From Terrabacter aerolatus (GTDB taxonomy: Bacteria > Actinomycetota > Actinomycetes > Actinomycetales > Dermatophilaceae): a stretch of 64,000 bases of DNA. The stretch is taken from contig NZ_BJYX01000007.1 of the NCBI RefSeq assembly GCF_007991735.1, positions 62,001 to 126,000 of the forward strand, in the 5' to 3' direction. Below the pieces are notes generated by a model. The model worked only from the letters and a program-made list of their open reading frames with translations, did no database searches and was not told the origin of the DNA. How positions within the stretch are numbered: the stretch's first letter is position 1; the number at the start of each line of letters is the position of its first letter. A program made the position numbers and the translations under genes. This document shows, piece after piece, positions 8,384 through 26,202 of the stretch.

Positions 8384-8456
8384 GCTGGCGTGGCGCAATT
8401 GGTAGCGCACCTGTCTTGTAAACAGGCGGTTAGGGGTTCGAGTCCCCTCGCCAGCT
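8384..8456 (+). tRNA. tRNA-Thr (anticodon TGT)
   Basis: A 73-base cloverleaf is visible. Acceptor arms GCTGGCG (8384-8390) and CGCCAGC (8449-8455) pair, with discriminator T. The D-arm is GCGCAATTGGTAGCGC. The anticodon arm CCTGT-CTTGTAA-ACAGG gives TGT, which reads ACA threonine codons. The T-arm is AGGGG-TTCGAGT-CCCCT. The 3' half is the attachment site of the integrated element that follows, and the gene is regenerated intact at the left junction. Confidence 0.96.
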
Positions 8457-8464
8457 CTCTGACC
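8424..8464 (+). repeat. attL, 41-bp att core in the tRNA-Thr 3' end
   Basis: Starts AGGCGGTTAGGGGTTCGAG within the tRNA variable loop and T-arm, and ends CTCTCTGACC just past the gene. The matching copy at 20241-20281 differs at one base (G at 8454, A at 20271). The left copy lies inside the functional tRNA, and the integrase gene lies just inside the element, as expected for a tyrosine-recombinase element. Confidence 0.93.
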
Positions 8465-8500: not shown

Positions 8501-9700
8501 TCACCCACTTCTTTGCCCACCTTTTTCGCGTGCCGGGAGGGCCCTGAGGGGGCCGGCGGACTCGAGCGCAGCGAGCACTCGCGGGTCAGCGAGACCGCGA
8601 CCGAGATAGACGTCGAGCGACATCGACACTCGCGTGTGCCCGAGCTGGTCGGCGATCATCCGGCCGGTGGCGCCCATCTCATCGAGGACAGTGGCGGTGG
8701 TCTTGCGCCAGGCGTGCGCGGTGACCCAGTCCAGGCCGACAGTCTCACGCGCCTCCTTGAGGAAACGGCTGACGTTGCGGGGATCTCGGAAGCCGCCGTC
8801 GATGGTGCCGAAGACGGGGCGCTCGGGGTCGTAGAGCGTCTGAGCCCGTCGATGGAGCATCGTGACGCACCAGACCGGAAGTCGCAGGCGCCTTTGACCC
8901 GCCTCCGACTTCGTCTCCTTGCGGAGCAGGCCTCGACCGGTGACGCGGATGAGGGTGGACGAGACCCTGATCGTGGCCGTATCGAGGTCGACCTCGGCCC
9001 ATGTGACCGCCAACGCTTCCCCGATGCGGAGGCCCGTTGCGAGGAGGAACGCCGACAAGTCGAGTAGGTCGCGTTCCATGGCCTTCTGGTTGCCAGCCAC
9101 CCCAACGAACCACTGCGTGCGCTCCTCGACCGTCAGCGCGCGAGGTTGACGCTGCGGCCTGACACGAAGGCGTTCGACCTCTCGCGCCGGGTTGGTCGCC
9201 ACTGCACCGTGGCGCACAGCACGGCCCATGATCCCCGAGACGATCGAACGGCACGTCCGCGCGGTCGAGGGACCGACTCGGGTGTGGATGTCGACGATGA
9301 CCCGGTTGACCGTGGGTGTGGTGACCTGGCTCAGCCGCAGTGCACCCAATGCGGGCAGAACGTGCCCATCGAGCACCCGGCGATACGTCTCCAGGGTGCC
9401 GGGGGAGCGCTGACCGGCCTCGACGAGCTGCGCCATCTCGTCAAACCATTGCTTGGCCGCCAGCTCGAAGGGGTCCGAACGGGCGAGGCCGCTGCCTCCG
9501 CCGAGGCGGGCGAGCGCCTCGAGGGCGTCGGTCAGGGCCTCGACCGCGGCACGGCGAGTGCGACCGTGGCGCTCGATGACGCGCTTCCTCCCGTCCTCCC
9601 CGCGGAACCGGGCCCGGGCCCTATGGCGGACCGGATCGGCGGAGACCCGTGAGGTGGTGATCTCACCCCACTCGCCCGGCCTCAGCCGTTCGCGAGGCAT
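8501..9700 (-). CDS. int: tyrosine recombinase (phage-type integrase)
   Basis: A 399-residue integrase that catalyses site-specific recombination between the element and the tRNA-Thr 3' end. The N-terminal arm-binding and SAM-like core-binding regions (about 1-190) lead to the catalytic domain. Its active-site residues are present: Arg in ATGLRIGEAL, His and Arg in TAHAWRKT, His in DQLGHTRVS, and nucleophile Tyr in LDVYLG near the C-terminus. ATG 9700 is chosen because it follows the excisionase stop (TGA ending at 9702) by one base; the frame is open further upstream. Its 3' end lies 37 bases from attL. Confidence 0.94.
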   Translation of the reverse strand: MPRERLRPGEWGEITTSRVSADPVRHRARARFRGEDGRKRVIERHGRTRRAAVEALTDALEALARLGGGSGLARSDPFELAAKQWFDEMAQLVEAGQRSPGTLETYRRVLDGHVLPALGALRLSQVTTPTVNRVIVDIHTRVGPSTARTCRSIVSGIMGRAVRHGAVATNPAREVERLRVRPQRQPRALTVEERTQWFVGVAGNQKAMERDLLDLSAFLLATGLRIGEALAVTWAEVDLDTATIRVSSTLIRVTGRGLLRKETKSEAGQRRLRLPVWCVTMLHRRAQTLYDPERPVFGTIDGGFRDPRNVSRFLKEARETVGLDWVTAHAWRKTTATVLDEMGATGRMIADQLGHTRVSMSLDVYLGRGLADPRVLAALESAGPLRALPAREKGGQRSG

Positions 9701-9701
9701 C

Positions 9702-9887
9702 TCAGGCAGCCGTCTGGTCGTCCAGCCAGGCCTCGACATCCTCGGGCCGGTAGCGCAGGTGCCGTCCGACCTTGACTGCCTTTGGGCCGCGATGGCGGAG
9801 TCGCCAGTCGTAAAGCGTCTGGACCGGGACCCCTAGGTACTCAGCAACTTCCGCCACCTTGAGTAGCGGAACAAATATCGTCTTCAC
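9702..9887 (-). CDS. xis: excisionase / MerR-like HTH DNA-binding protein
   Basis: A 61-residue protein that is a single winged-helix excisionase domain: LLKVAEVAEYLGVPVQTLYDWR, then a GPKAVKVGRHLRYRPEDVEAWL wing. Such proteins bend att DNA and steer integrase towards excision. It sits immediately upstream of the integrase and downstream of the replication initiator, the standard rep-xis-int order of pSAM2-like elements. The three genes are probably co-transcribed. Confidence 0.88.
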   Translation of the reverse strand: MKTIFVPLLKVAEVAEYLGVPVQTLYDWRLRHRGPKAVKVGRHLRYRPEDVEAWLDDQTAA

Positions 9888-9902
9888 TTCAATCTGCCTC
9901 TC

Positions 9903-11461
9903 TCAGTTGGATTTCTTCCGTGCGCTGGGCTGCCTTTCCTGTGCGTACTCACGGGCGCGGGCTGCAGCGGCCTTGGCGAGTTCGGCGTCGCCGTCGGTGT
10001 CCCATCCGGATCCGGCGTAGGTCCACTGGCCGACCACGAGGATGGTTTCGGTGTCGTCGTCGGCGAGGAGGTCGTCGAGGTCGCGGACGTCGAGGGCGCG
10101 CCCCTCGCGGCTGGCGGTGGCGAGGCGGCGCTGGAACCGGGCGCGGGCGCGGCGCAGCCGTCCGAGGGTGACGCTGTAGCGGCGGGACTTGGAGGAGAAG
10201 TGGCCGCGGAAGCCGAGCATGTGCGCCCACTTGCCGAGCAGCGCGTAGGGATGCTCAGCCATCGGTGCGTCGGTGGCGGCCGCTTCGAAGCGCTGCCGGT
10301 CGACGGTCTGGGCGATAGTCGAACGCAGCCGGTGCAGGTGCGGGCTGGTCGCGTCGGTCGAGTCGGTGGCGGACTTGGTCGCGTACTTCGCGAGGTAGCC
10401 GGCGACCTGCTCGGCCTCGAGCTGCTTCTCCGGATCGTCGGTCCGGTGGGCGTCGCGGACGGGTCGGGCGTCGACCTGGCTGCCGAACCGGAGCCGTCGG
10501 ACGAGGTCACCGCCGAGCAGCGGCGGGGCGTCGAACCACACCGACGCGGCTGCGGTCTCGATCGCGGTCGATAGGAGGGCGGCGGTGATGCCGGGCGGGG
10601 CTGGCGCGTGCGAGTCGTCGTTGGTTGTCTTGCCGTCGACGCGGACGAGGGCGTGGAAGTGGATGAGGCCGCGGAGCTGGTACTCGGCGACCTTGGCGAA
10701 CTGGACGGTCGCGATCTTCGCGAGCCGGTGCGCGCTGATCCCGAGTATCCGGGCGAGGGTGCGGCGCAGGGCGATGGTGAACCGTCGCCACAGCTCGGGT
10801 GCCCACCACTGCCACACGAGGTGCGAGGGGTAGTCGTAGCAGTCGCCGCCAGCGGCTGCCCGAGTATCGGCTCGCCCTCGGCATGGCTGGCGTGGCAGAC
10901 GGTCGACCGGCCGTGTGGGCACCGGTCTGCTTGGTCCTTGGCCCGGTAGGGGCGGCAGCGGCGCCCGTTGCGGGTGCCGTGGACTGGGCCGAACGACGGC
11001 GCGGTGACGGTCGCGAAGACGAGCGGGTTCTCCGACACCGTGTCGGGGACGCCTTTGCCGCCGACGACCCCGGCCCGGATGAGGTGGAAGGTGTCGGCGG
11101 CGTAGACGCGGGAACAGGCGGGGCAGTCGGCGGCGCGACGGTTCCCGCAGCGGACGTGCAGGACCCCGAGCGGAGTGTCGGTCGACGAGAACGAGGACAC
11201 GACCTCACCGGTGCGGGTGTCGACGGTCTGCGACGAGCCGTGCAGGCGAATCGGTCTGGCGCAGTGTCCGACCCGGGAGGCGGCCTCGGACCAGGCGTCG
11301 AAGTCCCGCGACAGCAACCGGGCCAGCACCTGCGCCTCGGTGGCCGGGTCGAGGTGGTCCAGGTCGAGCGGGTGTCCGTCCCCGACCCGATCGCCGCCAG
11401 TCTGCTCGTTTGAGCGCAAAGGGACGGCGTCCCAGACGCGGTCTCGTGTTTCCCGGGTCAT
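9903..11461 (-). pseudogene. RepSA-type replication initiator, broken by a frameshift
   Basis: The replication initiator family of pSAM2-like elements is recognisable in two frames. The first part (from ATG 11461) has the cysteine-rich segment VRCGNRRAADCPACSRVYAAD and runs to PILGQPL near 10853. The second part resumes as GDCYDYPSHLVWQWWAPELW and continues through LRGLIHFHALVRVDG and a basic tail to the stop at 9903. A single missing base between 10849 and 10850, in the codon after CTG, would restore CxxCYDY continuity. Together the parts encode about 519 residues, so little else is lost. Real mutation, programmed shift and sequencing error cannot be told apart here. Confidence 0.82.
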
Positions 11462-22499: not shown

Positions 22500-24008
22500 T
22501 CAGGGGTGCGAGGCCGCTCCCCGGCTCTCCGCTCCGACGGGCCCGTCGTGTCGCGCGCCGCCGCGTCGATCCCGAGCGGCTGCGGCCACCGTCCGCCGCT
22601 CGTAGGGGGCGAGGTCGAACGTGGCGAACCGCTCGCGGAACTCCGTGGCCCGTCCGGGCCACAGCAGGCTCTGGCGGCCGTTGCGCGGGTCGGTGTACCA
22701 GTTCGAGCAGCCGGAGGTCCAGGGCTTGCCGACGCTCCGCACGGCCATCTCCTGCGCGTAGCGGTCCTCGGCGGCGGCCGACACCTCGAGGGCGACGCCG
22801 GGTGGGGTCTGGCGCAGGGCGCCGAGGACGTAGTCGATCTGCGCCTCGATCATCAGCACGGCGGAGTTGTGGCTGAGGCTCGCGTTGGGACCGTCGAGGA
22901 TGTACATGTTCGGGAAGTCGTGGACGGCGGTCGAGGCATAGGCCTGCATCCCGGCAACCCAGTGCTCGTCGAGCGTGCTGCCGGTCCTGCCCCGGACGAG
23001 ACCGGCATACGGCTGGCGGGTGGTGTGGAAGCCGGTGGCCAGGATGACCACGTCGACCTCGTGGCGGTCGCGGTCGGTCAGGACGGCGTCCGGTTCGAAA
23101 CTGGACAGCGGTCCTTGCACCGTGACGTGGGGCAGCGCGGCGGCAGGGTAGTAGTCGTCGGAGAAGAGCACCCGCTTGCAGCCGAACTCGTGGCGCGGGG
23201 TGAGCCGGGCCCTCAGGGCGGGATCGCCGACCTGGTCGGTCAGGTGCCGCAGGGCGCGTGCCCTCGCCTCCTGTCGGGCCCCGAGGTCGCCGACCCTGGC
23301 GTCGTAGAGCCGCTCCGCCTCGGCGAACAGGTCGGCCCGCAGGGCAGCGAGCACGTCGGGCTGCTCGGCGAAGCGGGCCTGCTCGACCGCGCCGTACGCG
23401 ACGTCACCGCGCGGCAGGACGTAGGGCGCGCTGCGCTGCAGGACCACGACCGACCGCGCACGGGCAGCCACGTCCGGCAGCAGCTGGATGCCCGACGCGC
23501 CGGTGCCGACAACGGCGACGCGGGCACCGTCCAGGTCCACCGAGTGGTCCCACGCGGACGAGTGGAAGACCGGGCCTGCGAACCGGCCCGGCACCTCCGG
23601 GAGTCGGGGCGCGGTGAGCCGTCCAGCGGCCAGCACGAGCACGTCTGCACTCACAGGTCCCGCGGAGGTCGTGAGGTGCCAGCCCGTGCCGGACCAGACG
23701 GCCGACTCGACGTTCGTGCCGAGACGCAGGTGCTCGCGGACGGGCTCGGCAGCGCGCTCGAGGTAGTCACGGATCTCACCACCCCGCGCGAAGCGGCTGG
23801 AGAACGACGGGTTCGGCAAGAAGGAGAAGCAGTAGAGGTGGGCAGGGACGTCGCAGCGGACCCCGGGGTAGGTGTTGTCCCGCCACGTGCCGCCGACGGC
23901 CGGGGCCCGCTCGAGGACGACGAAGGAGTCCTCGCCCTCGGCCTGCAGGCGCAGCGCTGCTCCCAGACCGGCGAAGCCGGCTCCGACGATCGCGACGCGC
24001 ACCCTCAC
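22500..24008 (-). CDS. Baeyer-Villiger-type FAD/NADPH monooxygenase
   Basis: A 502-residue class B flavin monooxygenase. It has the N-terminal FAD Rossmann motif GAGFAGLGAA, VGGTWRDNTYPGVRCD, the Baeyer-Villiger fingerprint FAGPVFHSSAWD (pattern FxGxxxHxxxWD), the second (NADPH) Rossmann motif VVGTGASGIQ, and ATGFHT. Such enzymes insert one oxygen atom from O2 into ketones, turning them into esters or lactones. The start is GTG 24008, 10 bases behind the stop of the CofG/CofH-like gene, with GTGAGGA as ribosome site, so the two are co-transcribed and perhaps work on one pathway. The C-terminal 30 residues (charged, Gly/Ala-rich) look disordered. The substrate is unknown. Confidence 0.88.
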   Translation of the reverse strand: MRVRVAIVGAGFAGLGAALRLQAEGEDSFVVLERAPAVGGTWRDNTYPGVRCDVPAHLYCFSFLPNPSFSSRFARGGEIRDYLERAAEPVREHLRLGTNVESAVWSGTGWHLTTSAGPVSADVLVLAAGRLTAPRLPEVPGRFAGPVFHSSAWDHSVDLDGARVAVVGTGASGIQLLPDVAARARSVVVLQRSAPYVLPRGDVAYGAVEQARFAEQPDVLAALRADLFAEAERLYDARVGDLGARQEARARALRHLTDQVGDPALRARLTPRHEFGCKRVLFSDDYYPAAALPHVTVQGPLSSFEPDAVLTDRDRHEVDVVILATGFHTTRQPYAGLVRGRTGSTLDEHWVAGMQAYASTAVHDFPNMYILDGPNASLSHNSAVLMIEAQIDYVLGALRQTPPGVALEVSAAAEDRYAQEMAVRSVGKPWTSGCSNWYTDPRNGRQSLLWPGRATEFRERFATFDLAPYERRTVAAAARDRRGGARHDGPVGAESRGAASHP

Positions 24009-24018
24009 CCGCGCGTCC

Positions 24019-26202
24019 TCACCGGGCCGAGGTGCCGGCATACGTCGTCGTGCGCAGCCGGAGGGTGCGACCGAGCGTGCGCGCCAGCTGACGCGCAGTC
24101 TCGACCGGGAGCTCACGCCCGAACTCGACTCCCGCCTCGGGGAGCACGCGACCGTCCAGGAGGGTGCCTCCGAGGTCATCGGCGCCGGAGCGGAGGGCGG
24201 CGACGGCGCCCTCGAGACCGAGGCGGGTCCAGGGGGCCTGGTGGTGGTTGATGCTGCCGTGCAGCATGAGCCGGGCGACGGCGTGGACGGCGCGCGCGTC
24301 GTCCTGGTCCACGGTCGCACCGGGCAGGGGCATCGGCACGAACTCGGTGAAGCCACCGGTCTCGGCCTGGAGCGCACGCAGGCGCCGCAGGTGCGCCACT
24401 CGTTGGGCGGGGGTCTCGCCGTGGCCGTAGAACATCACCGACGTCGACCGGAGTCCTAGGCCGTGGGCGGCCCGGATGGCCTCGAGCCACCGGTCGACCG
24501 GGAGGTCGCCGGGGAACGCCCGCGCGCGGTACGCCTCGTCGAGGAGCTTGACCCCGGTGCCGGGCACGGTGTCGACCCCGGCTGCGGCGAGGGCCCGGAG
24601 GTGCTCGTCGAGACTGCGGCCGGTCCGGCGCGCTCCGTCGACGACGTCTGCCGGCCGGAACGCGTGCAGGTGGATGTCGGGGGCGCCGCGCTTGGCGGCC
24701 GCGGCAAGCTGCTCGTAGACGTCGTCGGGGGCGTGGCCCGGTGCCGTGCCCTGGATGCAGATCTCGGTGGCCCCGAGGTCCCAGGCGTCCGTGGCGACGC
24801 GCTCGACGAGGTCCGGGTCGGCGCAGACGTCGGACCCGAGGTTGCGGTTGACGACGAGGCTCACGGTCGCACCGACGACCGAGCGCCTCAGGTCGTCGGC
24901 CAGGGCCGCGAGCCGGTCGAGCTCGTCGCCGCGGGCCCCGAGGAGCGCGGCGTAGTCGGCGTCGGTCAGGCCGGTCGGGTCGGCAGCGGCCCGGCCCACC
25001 GGGTCCCCGGCGACGGCCCGTGGACTGCGCACGGCAGCCACCGGGCGTGGTCGGTGCGACGCCGTGGTGGCGCTCGCGGCGAGCACGACGTCGTGCAGCC
25101 CGGAGTCGATCCAGCGGTCGCGGTCGTCGATGTACGGCTGGTGGACGGTGAGCCGTTGGCGCAAGGTGAAGCCCGACTCGCGGGTGAGCCGCTCGAGGTC
25201 GTCGAGGCGGGGCCATGGCCGTTCGGGGTTCACGTGGTCCGCCGTCAAGGGGCTCACCCCGCCCCAGTCGTCGACTCCTGCCGCGAGGAGGGAGGCCAGC
25301 TCGGCGGGGTCGCTGAGATTGGGCGGGGCCTGGATCCGCATGTCGGCTCCGAGGACGAGACGCGCGGTGGCCACGGTCGCGAGGTACTCGTCGGCGCCGG
25401 CGTCGTCGACGTCCTGCATCGCGGTCGCCGGCTTGGCGCGGAAGTTCTGGATGATGACCTCCTGCACGTGACCGTGTCGCTCGTGCACGTCGCGCAGGGC
25501 GATCAGCGACTCGGCGCGGTCCTCGAGGGACTCACCGATGCCGACGAGCAGGCCGGTGGTGAAGGGGACCCGGGCGCGTCCGGCGTCCTCGAGCACGGCC
25601 AGGCGCACCTCGGGGTCCTTGTCCGGAGAGCCGAAGTGCGCCCCTCCCGGTCGCTCGAAGATCTCGCGCGACGTCGTCTCCAGCATCATCCCCATGGAGG
25701 GCGCCGTCGGGCGCAGGGCCTGGAGCTCGGCCAGGCTCAGCACCCCCGGGTTCAGGTGGGACAGGAGCCCCGTCTCGGCGGTGATCCGACGGGCCAGGTG
25801 GCCGACGTAGTCCACCGTCGAGGCGAAGCCGTGCTCGGAGAGCCACTCGCGAGCCACGCCCCATCGGTCCTCGGGGCGATCGCCCAGCGTCAGCAGGGCC
25901 TCCCTGCACCCCAGGGCGGCCCCCTGGTGCGCGACCGCCAGGACCTGCTCCTCGGAGAGGTAGGCGGACAGGCCCTTCGTGGCCAGCTTGGCCGGGGTGT
26001 CGACGAACGTGCAGTAGTGGCACCGGTCCCGACACAGCGTCGTGACGGGGATGAACACCTTGGGCGAGTAGGTGACCACCCGTTCGCGCCCCGCCCGACG
26101 CAGTCCCTCGTCACGGAGCCGGCCGGCGTCGGCGACGAGAGCCTCGAGCGCCTCCCCACGAGCCGACAGCAGGTCGACCAGCTCAGCGACCCCTCGAGGC
26201 AC
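24019..26202 (-). CDS. FbiC-like CofG/CofH fusion with a degenerate CofH half
   Basis: A 727-residue protein with the architecture of FO synthase (FbiC), which builds the deazaflavin core of coenzyme F420 from tyrosine and a ribityl-aminouracil. The CofG half (about 40-380) is intact, with the radical-SAM cluster motif CRDRCHYC at residues 57-64. The CofH half starts VSLVVNRNLGSDVC near residue 430, but the region that should carry its own CxxxCxxC is missing and runs straight to DPDLVERVATDAWDLGATEICIQG. FbiC proteins are usually about 840-860 residues, so about 110 are gone in total. GTG 26202 follows GGGAG. It is either a diverged paralogue needing a separate CofH, or a new function. Confidence 0.85.
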   Translation of the reverse strand: MPRGVAELVDLLSARGEALEALVADAGRLRDEGLRRAGRERVVTYSPKVFIPVTTLCRDRCHYCTFVDTPAKLATKGLSAYLSEEQVLAVAHQGAALGCREALLTLGDRPEDRWGVAREWLSEHGFASTVDYVGHLARRITAETGLLSHLNPGVLSLAELQALRPTAPSMGMMLETTSREIFERPGGAHFGSPDKDPEVRLAVLEDAGRARVPFTTGLLVGIGESLEDRAESLIALRDVHERHGHVQEVIIQNFRAKPATAMQDVDDAGADEYLATVATARLVLGADMRIQAPPNLSDPAELASLLAAGVDDWGGVSPLTADHVNPERPWPRLDDLERLTRESGFTLRQRLTVHQPYIDDRDRWIDSGLHDVVLAASATTASHRPRPVAAVRSPRAVAGDPVGRAAADPTGLTDADYAALLGARGDELDRLAALADDLRRSVVGATVSLVVNRNLGSDVCADPDLVERVATDAWDLGATEICIQGTAPGHAPDDVYEQLAAAAKRGAPDIHLHAFRPADVVDGARRTGRSLDEHLRALAAAGVDTVPGTGVKLLDEAYRARAFPGDLPVDRWLEAIRAAHGLGLRSTSVMFYGHGETPAQRVAHLRRLRALQAETGGFTEFVPMPLPGATVDQDDARAVHAVARLMLHGSINHHQAPWTRLGLEGAVAALRSGADDLGGTLLDGRVLPEAGVEFGRELPVETARQLARTLGRTLRLRTTTYAGTSAR

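Follow-up and report, generated by a model that had tools for sequence, protein, structure and literature searches.

Terrabacter aerolatus carries an FbiC-like fusion gene whose CofG half is intact and whose CofH half has lost the residues for its own iron-sulfur cluster. The gene is followed by one for a putative Baeyer-Villiger-like flavin monooxygenase, and the two recur together in relatives. Judging from sequence and gene order, we propose that this pair supplies F420 synthesis with FO, the precursor of the coenzyme, or with a close deazaflavin, and that the monooxygenase substitutes for the radical chemistry of CofH. We put the probability of this reading at about 0.6. In terms of sequence and gene order, the fusion counts as a new FO-synthase variant. 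We advise against listing it as a normal FbiC, since the two-cluster feature that defines this enzyme was tested for and the second cluster motif is absent. No description of a clusterless CofH or of a monooxygenase partner was found in the open-access PMC literature. The features below are given in the coordinates of the window, i.e., the whole 64,000-nucleotide stretch of contig NZ_BJYX01000007.1 that was analyzed.

24019..26202, minus strand: FbiC-like fusion of a CofG half and a clusterless CofH half, an open frame of 727 amino acids with a GTG start and a TGA stop
25063..26202, minus strand: CofG half, about residues 1-380, radical-SAM domain intact (TIGR03550 match and kept columns)
24019..24960, minus strand: clusterless CofH half, about residues 415-727 (TIGR03551 match below the cut-off, modelled barrel, column counts)
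24814..24840, minus strand: site of the canonical CofH CxxxCxxC loop, about residues 455-463 (alignments and structure model)
22500..24008, minus strand: putative type I Baeyer-Villiger-like flavin monooxygenase, about 502 amino acids, with a GTG start 10 bases past the fbiC stop

The CofG-CofH Fusion

The original prediction described a clean frame with a CofG cysteine motif and a CofH half lacking one, and all three points hold in the window. The CofG half carries C57-x3-C61-x2-C64 at about 26011-26034 (-) and matches TIGR03550 over residues 44-372 with 452.3 bits, above the cut-off of 213.35. Column counts were made on 21 rows of the clusterless form (short rows) and 84 canonical rows. Left out of these counts were five rows that duplicate the window's gene (L008, L009, L011, L012, L013), four fragments (L025, L032, L041, L042) and the divergent row L040. 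Among the CofG columns that are invariant in canonical rows, 111/125 are kept in at least 90% of the 21 short rows and 1/125 is found in fewer than 10%. Six residues have been gained in at least 95% of the short rows, and just one of them, V277, lies in the CofG half. The CofH half is the faster-changing of the two, with a mean identity among short rows of 52% as against 69% for the CofG half.

The CofH half scores 297.6 bits against TIGR03551, below the curated cut-off of 374.1, and CofH models match residues 463-722. In the search of the T. aerolatus genome this match aligns to profile positions 2-49 and 72-343 and leaves out the 22 positions (50-71) at the cysteine box. The CxxxCxxC motif is missing from the CofH half of the window's protein and of all 20 short relatives. 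The prediction of a deletion of about 25 residues at this site is borne out in the window by the 22 lost profile positions, but it does not extend to the relatives as one fixed deletion. They carry unrelated replacement stretches of differing length there, so the event is better described as loss of the loop. The window's CofH half has two cysteines, which do not form a CxxC, CxxxC or CxxxxC pair. The CofH halves of all 21 short rows are free of such pairs, and on this ground we rejected relocation of the cluster cysteines to another part of the half. In canonical CofH, strand 2 is followed by two glycines, which we take to be the SAM-motif glycines, and here this pair is not kept intact either. 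The canonical CMQGG reads CIQGT in the window, and position 486 is Gly in none of the 21 short rows versus all 29 canonical rows of alignment A1. This alignment holds 21 short and 29 chosen canonical rows. The clusterless half is unable to form the p-hydroxybenzyl radical by the usual means.

Much of the CofH half is nevertheless retained. At 137 CofH columns, at least 98% of the 84 canonical rows agree on one residue. At 53 of these columns at least 90% of the 21 short rows retain that residue, and at 44 fewer than 10% do. Residues kept in 21/21 short rows are N452, R453, N454, E480, C482, Q484, G485, H513, G548, T549, Y592, G593, H604, E620, Q655, W658, D676, G678 and G679. In all, 72 CofH columns show a single residue throughout at least 20 of the 21 short rows. 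Other positions have switched. S516R, D596E and E684G occur in every short row versus none of the 29 canonical rows, R688P occurs in 20/21, E552 has become Lys or Arg in 20/21, and K566 has become Asp or Glu in 21/21. These fixed switches, together with the retained CofH residues, argue for refunctioning and not decay.

An AlphaFold2 model made on 50 rows has a mean pLDDT of 89.9, with the CofH-barrel blocks mostly above 84; its pTM is 0.56, and the stretch that joins the two halves (residues 382-398) is uncertain. The half-barrel, whose modelling had been suggested along with the prediction, is thus modelled with confidence. Strand 446-456 runs directly into helix 463-475, so that in the model the loop has been removed and the barrel kept. 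The nearest solved structure to the CofH half by sequence is the aminofutalosine synthase MqnE (PDB 6xi9, 6xig; E 3.6e-22), and 6xig and 6xi9 are also the top Foldseek matches of the model. MqnE, however, works in menaquinone synthesis as a radical-SAM enzyme, and the clusterless half scores far below the MqnE models.

Compared with canonical FbiC or CofG-CofH, the protein shares the order of the fusion, the intact CofG, a recognizable CofH barrel with its C-terminal region, and F420 genes in the genome. It differs in the missing CxxxCxxC and second SAM-motif glycine of the CofH half, in the charge and residue switches at 516, 552, 566, 596, 684 and 688, and in having a monooxygenase partner. 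Like the CofH half on its own model, the whole fusion falls below the cut-off of the FbiC model NF006687 (895 bits versus 1018).

Distribution and Phylogeny

A scan of one genome per species gave 598 stretches that matched a pattern and 80 loci among the matches listed. Alignment of the frames placed at least 20 of the 80 listed loci in the clusterless form (L043-L058, L061, L063, L065, L067). The carriers include Aeromicrobium flavum (71% identity in the best segment), Cryobacterium, Microbacterium, Herbiconiux, Promicromonospora, Humibacter, Frigoribacterium, Subtercola, Rathayibacter, Galbitalea, Curtobacterium, Arthrobacter and two further metagenome-assembled genomes (MAGs). The form was also found in two other genomes (G501 and G545), whose rows share the same HA(F/Y)RP and have likewise lost the SAM-motif glycine. 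The original prediction would have been undermined had the deleted form not been conserved in relatives. Since it recurs in at least 20 loci, and in G501 and G545 besides, we can rule out a sequencing error or a deletion private to the window.

Trees were built from 23 short and 33 chosen canonical rows, L040 included. In the CofH-half tree a branch with an SH-aLRT support of 99 separates the 23 short rows from the 33 canonical rows. The CofG-half tree does not bring the short rows together (2 changes), although a single group is not rejected (AU p 0.258). It does not show one origin, and we dropped it as support for one.

The spread is patchy. Any relative of FbiC is found in 1/9 genomes of the window's genus, and in its family 30/186 genomes have an FbiC-relative match when five candidates are scored per genome. 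One carrier, L049 (CAJCHX010000732.1), comes from a record named Acidobacteriaceae, and its CofH half groups with that of Promicromonospora soli (98), indicating either transfer or a misplaced contig. Other unusual loci were seen as well. L040 (G171) and L041 (G055) have a CofH cysteine box of CTYKCTFCGFSKGPLSLNLRG or similar with an insert and represent a distinct variant in which the cysteines are kept. L042 (G110 C1:4104036-4105489) has FbiC as five matching pieces in two frames, and looks like an FbiC under loss.

The Monooxygenase Partner

The downstream protein is a class B flavin monooxygenase whose nearest solved relatives are steroid monooxygenase (4ap3) and phenylacetone monooxygenase (1w4x). 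The protein was aligned with its homologs in alignment A2, which holds 19 of the 21 sequences and leaves out L046, where a contig end cuts the gene, and L067, where it lies in two frames. Residue numbers are those of row 1 of A2, which starts one codon before the GTG. G10-x-G12-x2-G15, F144-x-G146-x3-H150-x3-W154 and G169-x-G171 are invariant in the 19 rows. FxGxxxHxxxW, which we take to be the type I Baeyer-Villiger fingerprint, thus lies between two Rossmann motifs. D54 and R280, also invariant in the 19 rows, align with the catalytic D66 and R337 of phenylacetone monooxygenase. The active-site Arg and Asp are described as conserved in passages of an earlier paper (PMC4966971). Fold by sequence, fingerprint and the two equivalent residues together suggest a Baeyer-Villiger-like enzyme. 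It differs from the steroid and phenylacetone enzymes in length (about 502 versus 542-549 residues) and in forming a module with a clusterless FbiC. Class B relatives are capable of other oxygenations.

A homolog of the monooxygenase lies downstream of the clusterless FbiC in 21/21 loci. In 15/21 loci the monooxygenase starts no more than about 50 bases past FbiC, and the remaining six have a gap of about 730-910 bases. In exactly those six (L044, L056, L057, L061, L063, L067) an alpha/beta-hydrolase-like frame fills the gap, with 65-119 bits to the one of L067. In L067 (Arthrobacter sp. MYb23) the monooxygenase is in two overlapping frames, 8950-9795 and 9692-10792, and may be broken or misread.

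By canonical FbiC the monooxygenase was not seen. No homolog (E 1e-5) was found near 60 canonical FbiC loci, 48 of which had both 6 kb flanks. None was found near 89 canonical-type loci either, of which L014-L042 had flanks of about 1.5 kb or less and four are fragments. We therefore rule out that the monooxygenase is a common neighbor of any FbiC.

We searched 396 genomes of the phylum with a profile of the 19 monooxygenase proteins and examined the 30 best loci. Three of them (G501, G545 and the window's own) score 726-730 bits and adjoin the clusterless form. The next scores 624, and no FbiC relative lies within 1.5 kb of any of the other 27. The high scores of the three are expected, because the profile was built from the same family. 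As G501 and G545 were found via the monooxygenase model, their adjacency is not an independent test. In G501 the parts are unfused and form three neighboring frames, in the order clusterless CofH, monooxygenase and CofG (L182, 269-1450, 1501-2982 and 2898-4259; also L212). The three parts thus travel together, whether fused or not.

F420 Genes and the Search for a Second CofH

One option raised with the original prediction was that a second CofH is encoded elsewhere. The genome of T. aerolatus is in 62 contigs and listed as 100% complete, and it has no CofH above the TIGR03551 cut-off. With this genome, the 20 relatives, G501 and G545 taken together, none was found in the 23 genomes with the clusterless form, several of which are MAGs, and we rejected this option.

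Carrier genomes do have F420 genes. That of T. aerolatus has CofD and CofE together on contig 10, and its FGD-family genes are found on contigs 5 and 2; none of them adjoins the pair. CofD is above the cut-off in the genomes of all 20 relatives, and in 8/20 it lies no more than 10 kb from the CofH match. We searched for nearby F420 genes at 22 loci with the L067 proteins as queries and chosen score limits. FGD was found at 10 loci, CofC at 11, CofD at 7 and CofE at 4, so that 13/22 loci have at least one of them; in the stretch searched, 9/22 have none of the four. The fullest context is that of L067, where the order by NCBIfam is LLM oxidoreductase, FGD, CofD, CofE, CofC, clusterless FbiC, hydrolase and monooxygenase. 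FGD scores 632.9 bits here (cut-off 420), and this near-complete F420 operon has the clusterless gene as its single FbiC. This sole locus with such an operon is also the one with the two-frame monooxygenase.

The presence of F420 genes in a genome is to be read with some care. All nine genomes of the genus have CofD above the cut-off, a CofE match (above the cut-off in 4/9) and FGD-family genes. FbiC was not found in 8/9, one of these eight being 74% complete. Such genes are therefore no guarantee that FO is made locally. In the family, CofD is above the cut-off in 139/186 genomes as against the 30/186 with any FbiC relative. Genomes with F420 genes but no known FO synthase are thus common in the genus and family, and their FO may come from salvage or from another source, such as a different synthase.

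A Proposed Oxygen-Dependent Route to FO

Passages of a 2021 review describe the canonical route, in which CofH makes the p-hydroxybenzyl radical from tyrosine and adds it to 5-amino-6-ribitylaminouracil, and CofG closes the ring (PMC8498797). In the route we propose, the monooxygenase would take a tyrosine-derived ketone or aldehyde of the arylacetone type, i.e., 4-hydroxyphenylpyruvate or 4-hydroxyphenylacetaldehyde. Phenylacetone monooxygenase turns phenylacetone into benzyl acetate by inserting oxygen beside the benzyl carbon, and 4-hydroxybenzyl esters are known to give quinone methides. By analogy, oxygen would be inserted beside the benzyl carbon of the tyrosine-derived substrate, and the resulting 4-hydroxybenzyl ester would shed oxalate or formate to give a p-quinone methide. 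The clusterless CofH barrel would hold 5-amino-6-ribitylaminouracil, whose C5 would attack the quinone methide. The product would be the same adduct that CofH obtains with the p-hydroxybenzyl radical, and the intact CofG would close it to FO. We speculate that the hydrolase-like gene of the six loci would suit such ester chemistry. This ester and quinone-methide route is tentative, and its details could well turn out otherwise. It is possible, rather than probable, that the pair represents an oxygen-dependent second origin of F420, in which a Baeyer-Villiger step is combined with a former radical-SAM domain acting as a non-radical C-C bond former and only the CofG step is radical.

The original prediction had offered, besides a second CofH, that the protein carries out another radical-SAM reaction with the CofH barrel as binding domain. 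The idea of a binding domain fits the confident barrel model and the many CofH residues kept while the SAM and cluster residues are gone. A different radical-SAM reaction is not favored, given the well-kept CofG columns and the position of the gene among F420 genes in many relatives. The downstream monooxygenase, which the original prediction did not mention, offers a third option, namely that the missing step is carried out by another enzyme. It is improbable that the pair is unrelated to FO altogether, e.g., a radical-SAM enzyme of specialized metabolism that reuses CofG while FO is scavenged. The patchy spread, with one of nine genomes of the genus, would suit such an enzyme, and the eight FbiC-less congeners that keep CofD, CofE and FGD-family genes make FO uptake or another source likely there. 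Against it, F420 genes lie beside the pair in 13 of the 22 loci and in one the clusterless gene is the only FbiC of its operon, while none of the 20 relatives' genomes has a canonical CofH and all have CofD. Decay to a non-functional FbiC is hardly credible. Catalytic cysteines have been lost and a fragmented FbiC is known in the family (G110), yet the frame is open in the window and in 20 loci, the 72 invariant CofH columns persist, and new residues have become fixed.

The remaining alternatives concern what the pair makes and how. It may make a different deazaflavin, such as a hydroxylated or altered FO or one built from another aromatic precursor, which CofD and CofE would carry on to an F420 analogue. 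A new oxygenase beside an altered CofH half could shift the product, the CofD, CofE and FGD-type genes of carrier genomes would be at hand, and variants of the F420 product do exist, 3PG-F420 being one noted in passages of the review (PMC8498797). We consider this outcome rather unlikely. The CofG half is nearly unchanged, and its 111/125 kept columns suggest that the usual intermediate is still taken; the FGD of L067, at 632.9 bits versus 420, is an ordinary F420 enzyme. Alternatively, the single CofG cluster could carry out both radical steps, with the CofH barrel binding the substrate and the monooxygenase an accessory that, e.g., clears or oxidizes a by-product. An intact CofG half and a retained CofH barrel are what such an enzyme would need. 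The CofG half has no striking new conserved residues, though (V277 being just one of the six gained). Moreover, a monooxygenase present in 21/21 loci and not found by 60 canonical ones fits an essential partner better than an accessory, and we judge this alternative very improbable. Synthesis of FO or a close deazaflavin with the monooxygenase in place of the CofH radical chemistry is thus the reading we prefer.

According to passages of the 2021 review, all studied F420 producers share one universal mechanism of FO synthesis, which relies on two SAM-radical domains (PMC8498797). The pair, should it make FO, would be an exception to this rule. An oxygen-sensitive radical step would then have given way to an oxygen-dependent enzyme, and a former radical-SAM barrel would now act as a non-radical enzyme. 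If true, biotechnology would gain an FO synthase that is easier to use in aerobic hosts, and the pair would be a clear example of radical and oxygenase chemistry replacing one another. Annotation pipelines may label such genes FbiC, or their carriers FO-deficient.

As a minor observation on the rest of the 64-kb window, a tRNA-Thr (TGT) gene at 8384-8457 (+) is the only tRNA gene found in it.
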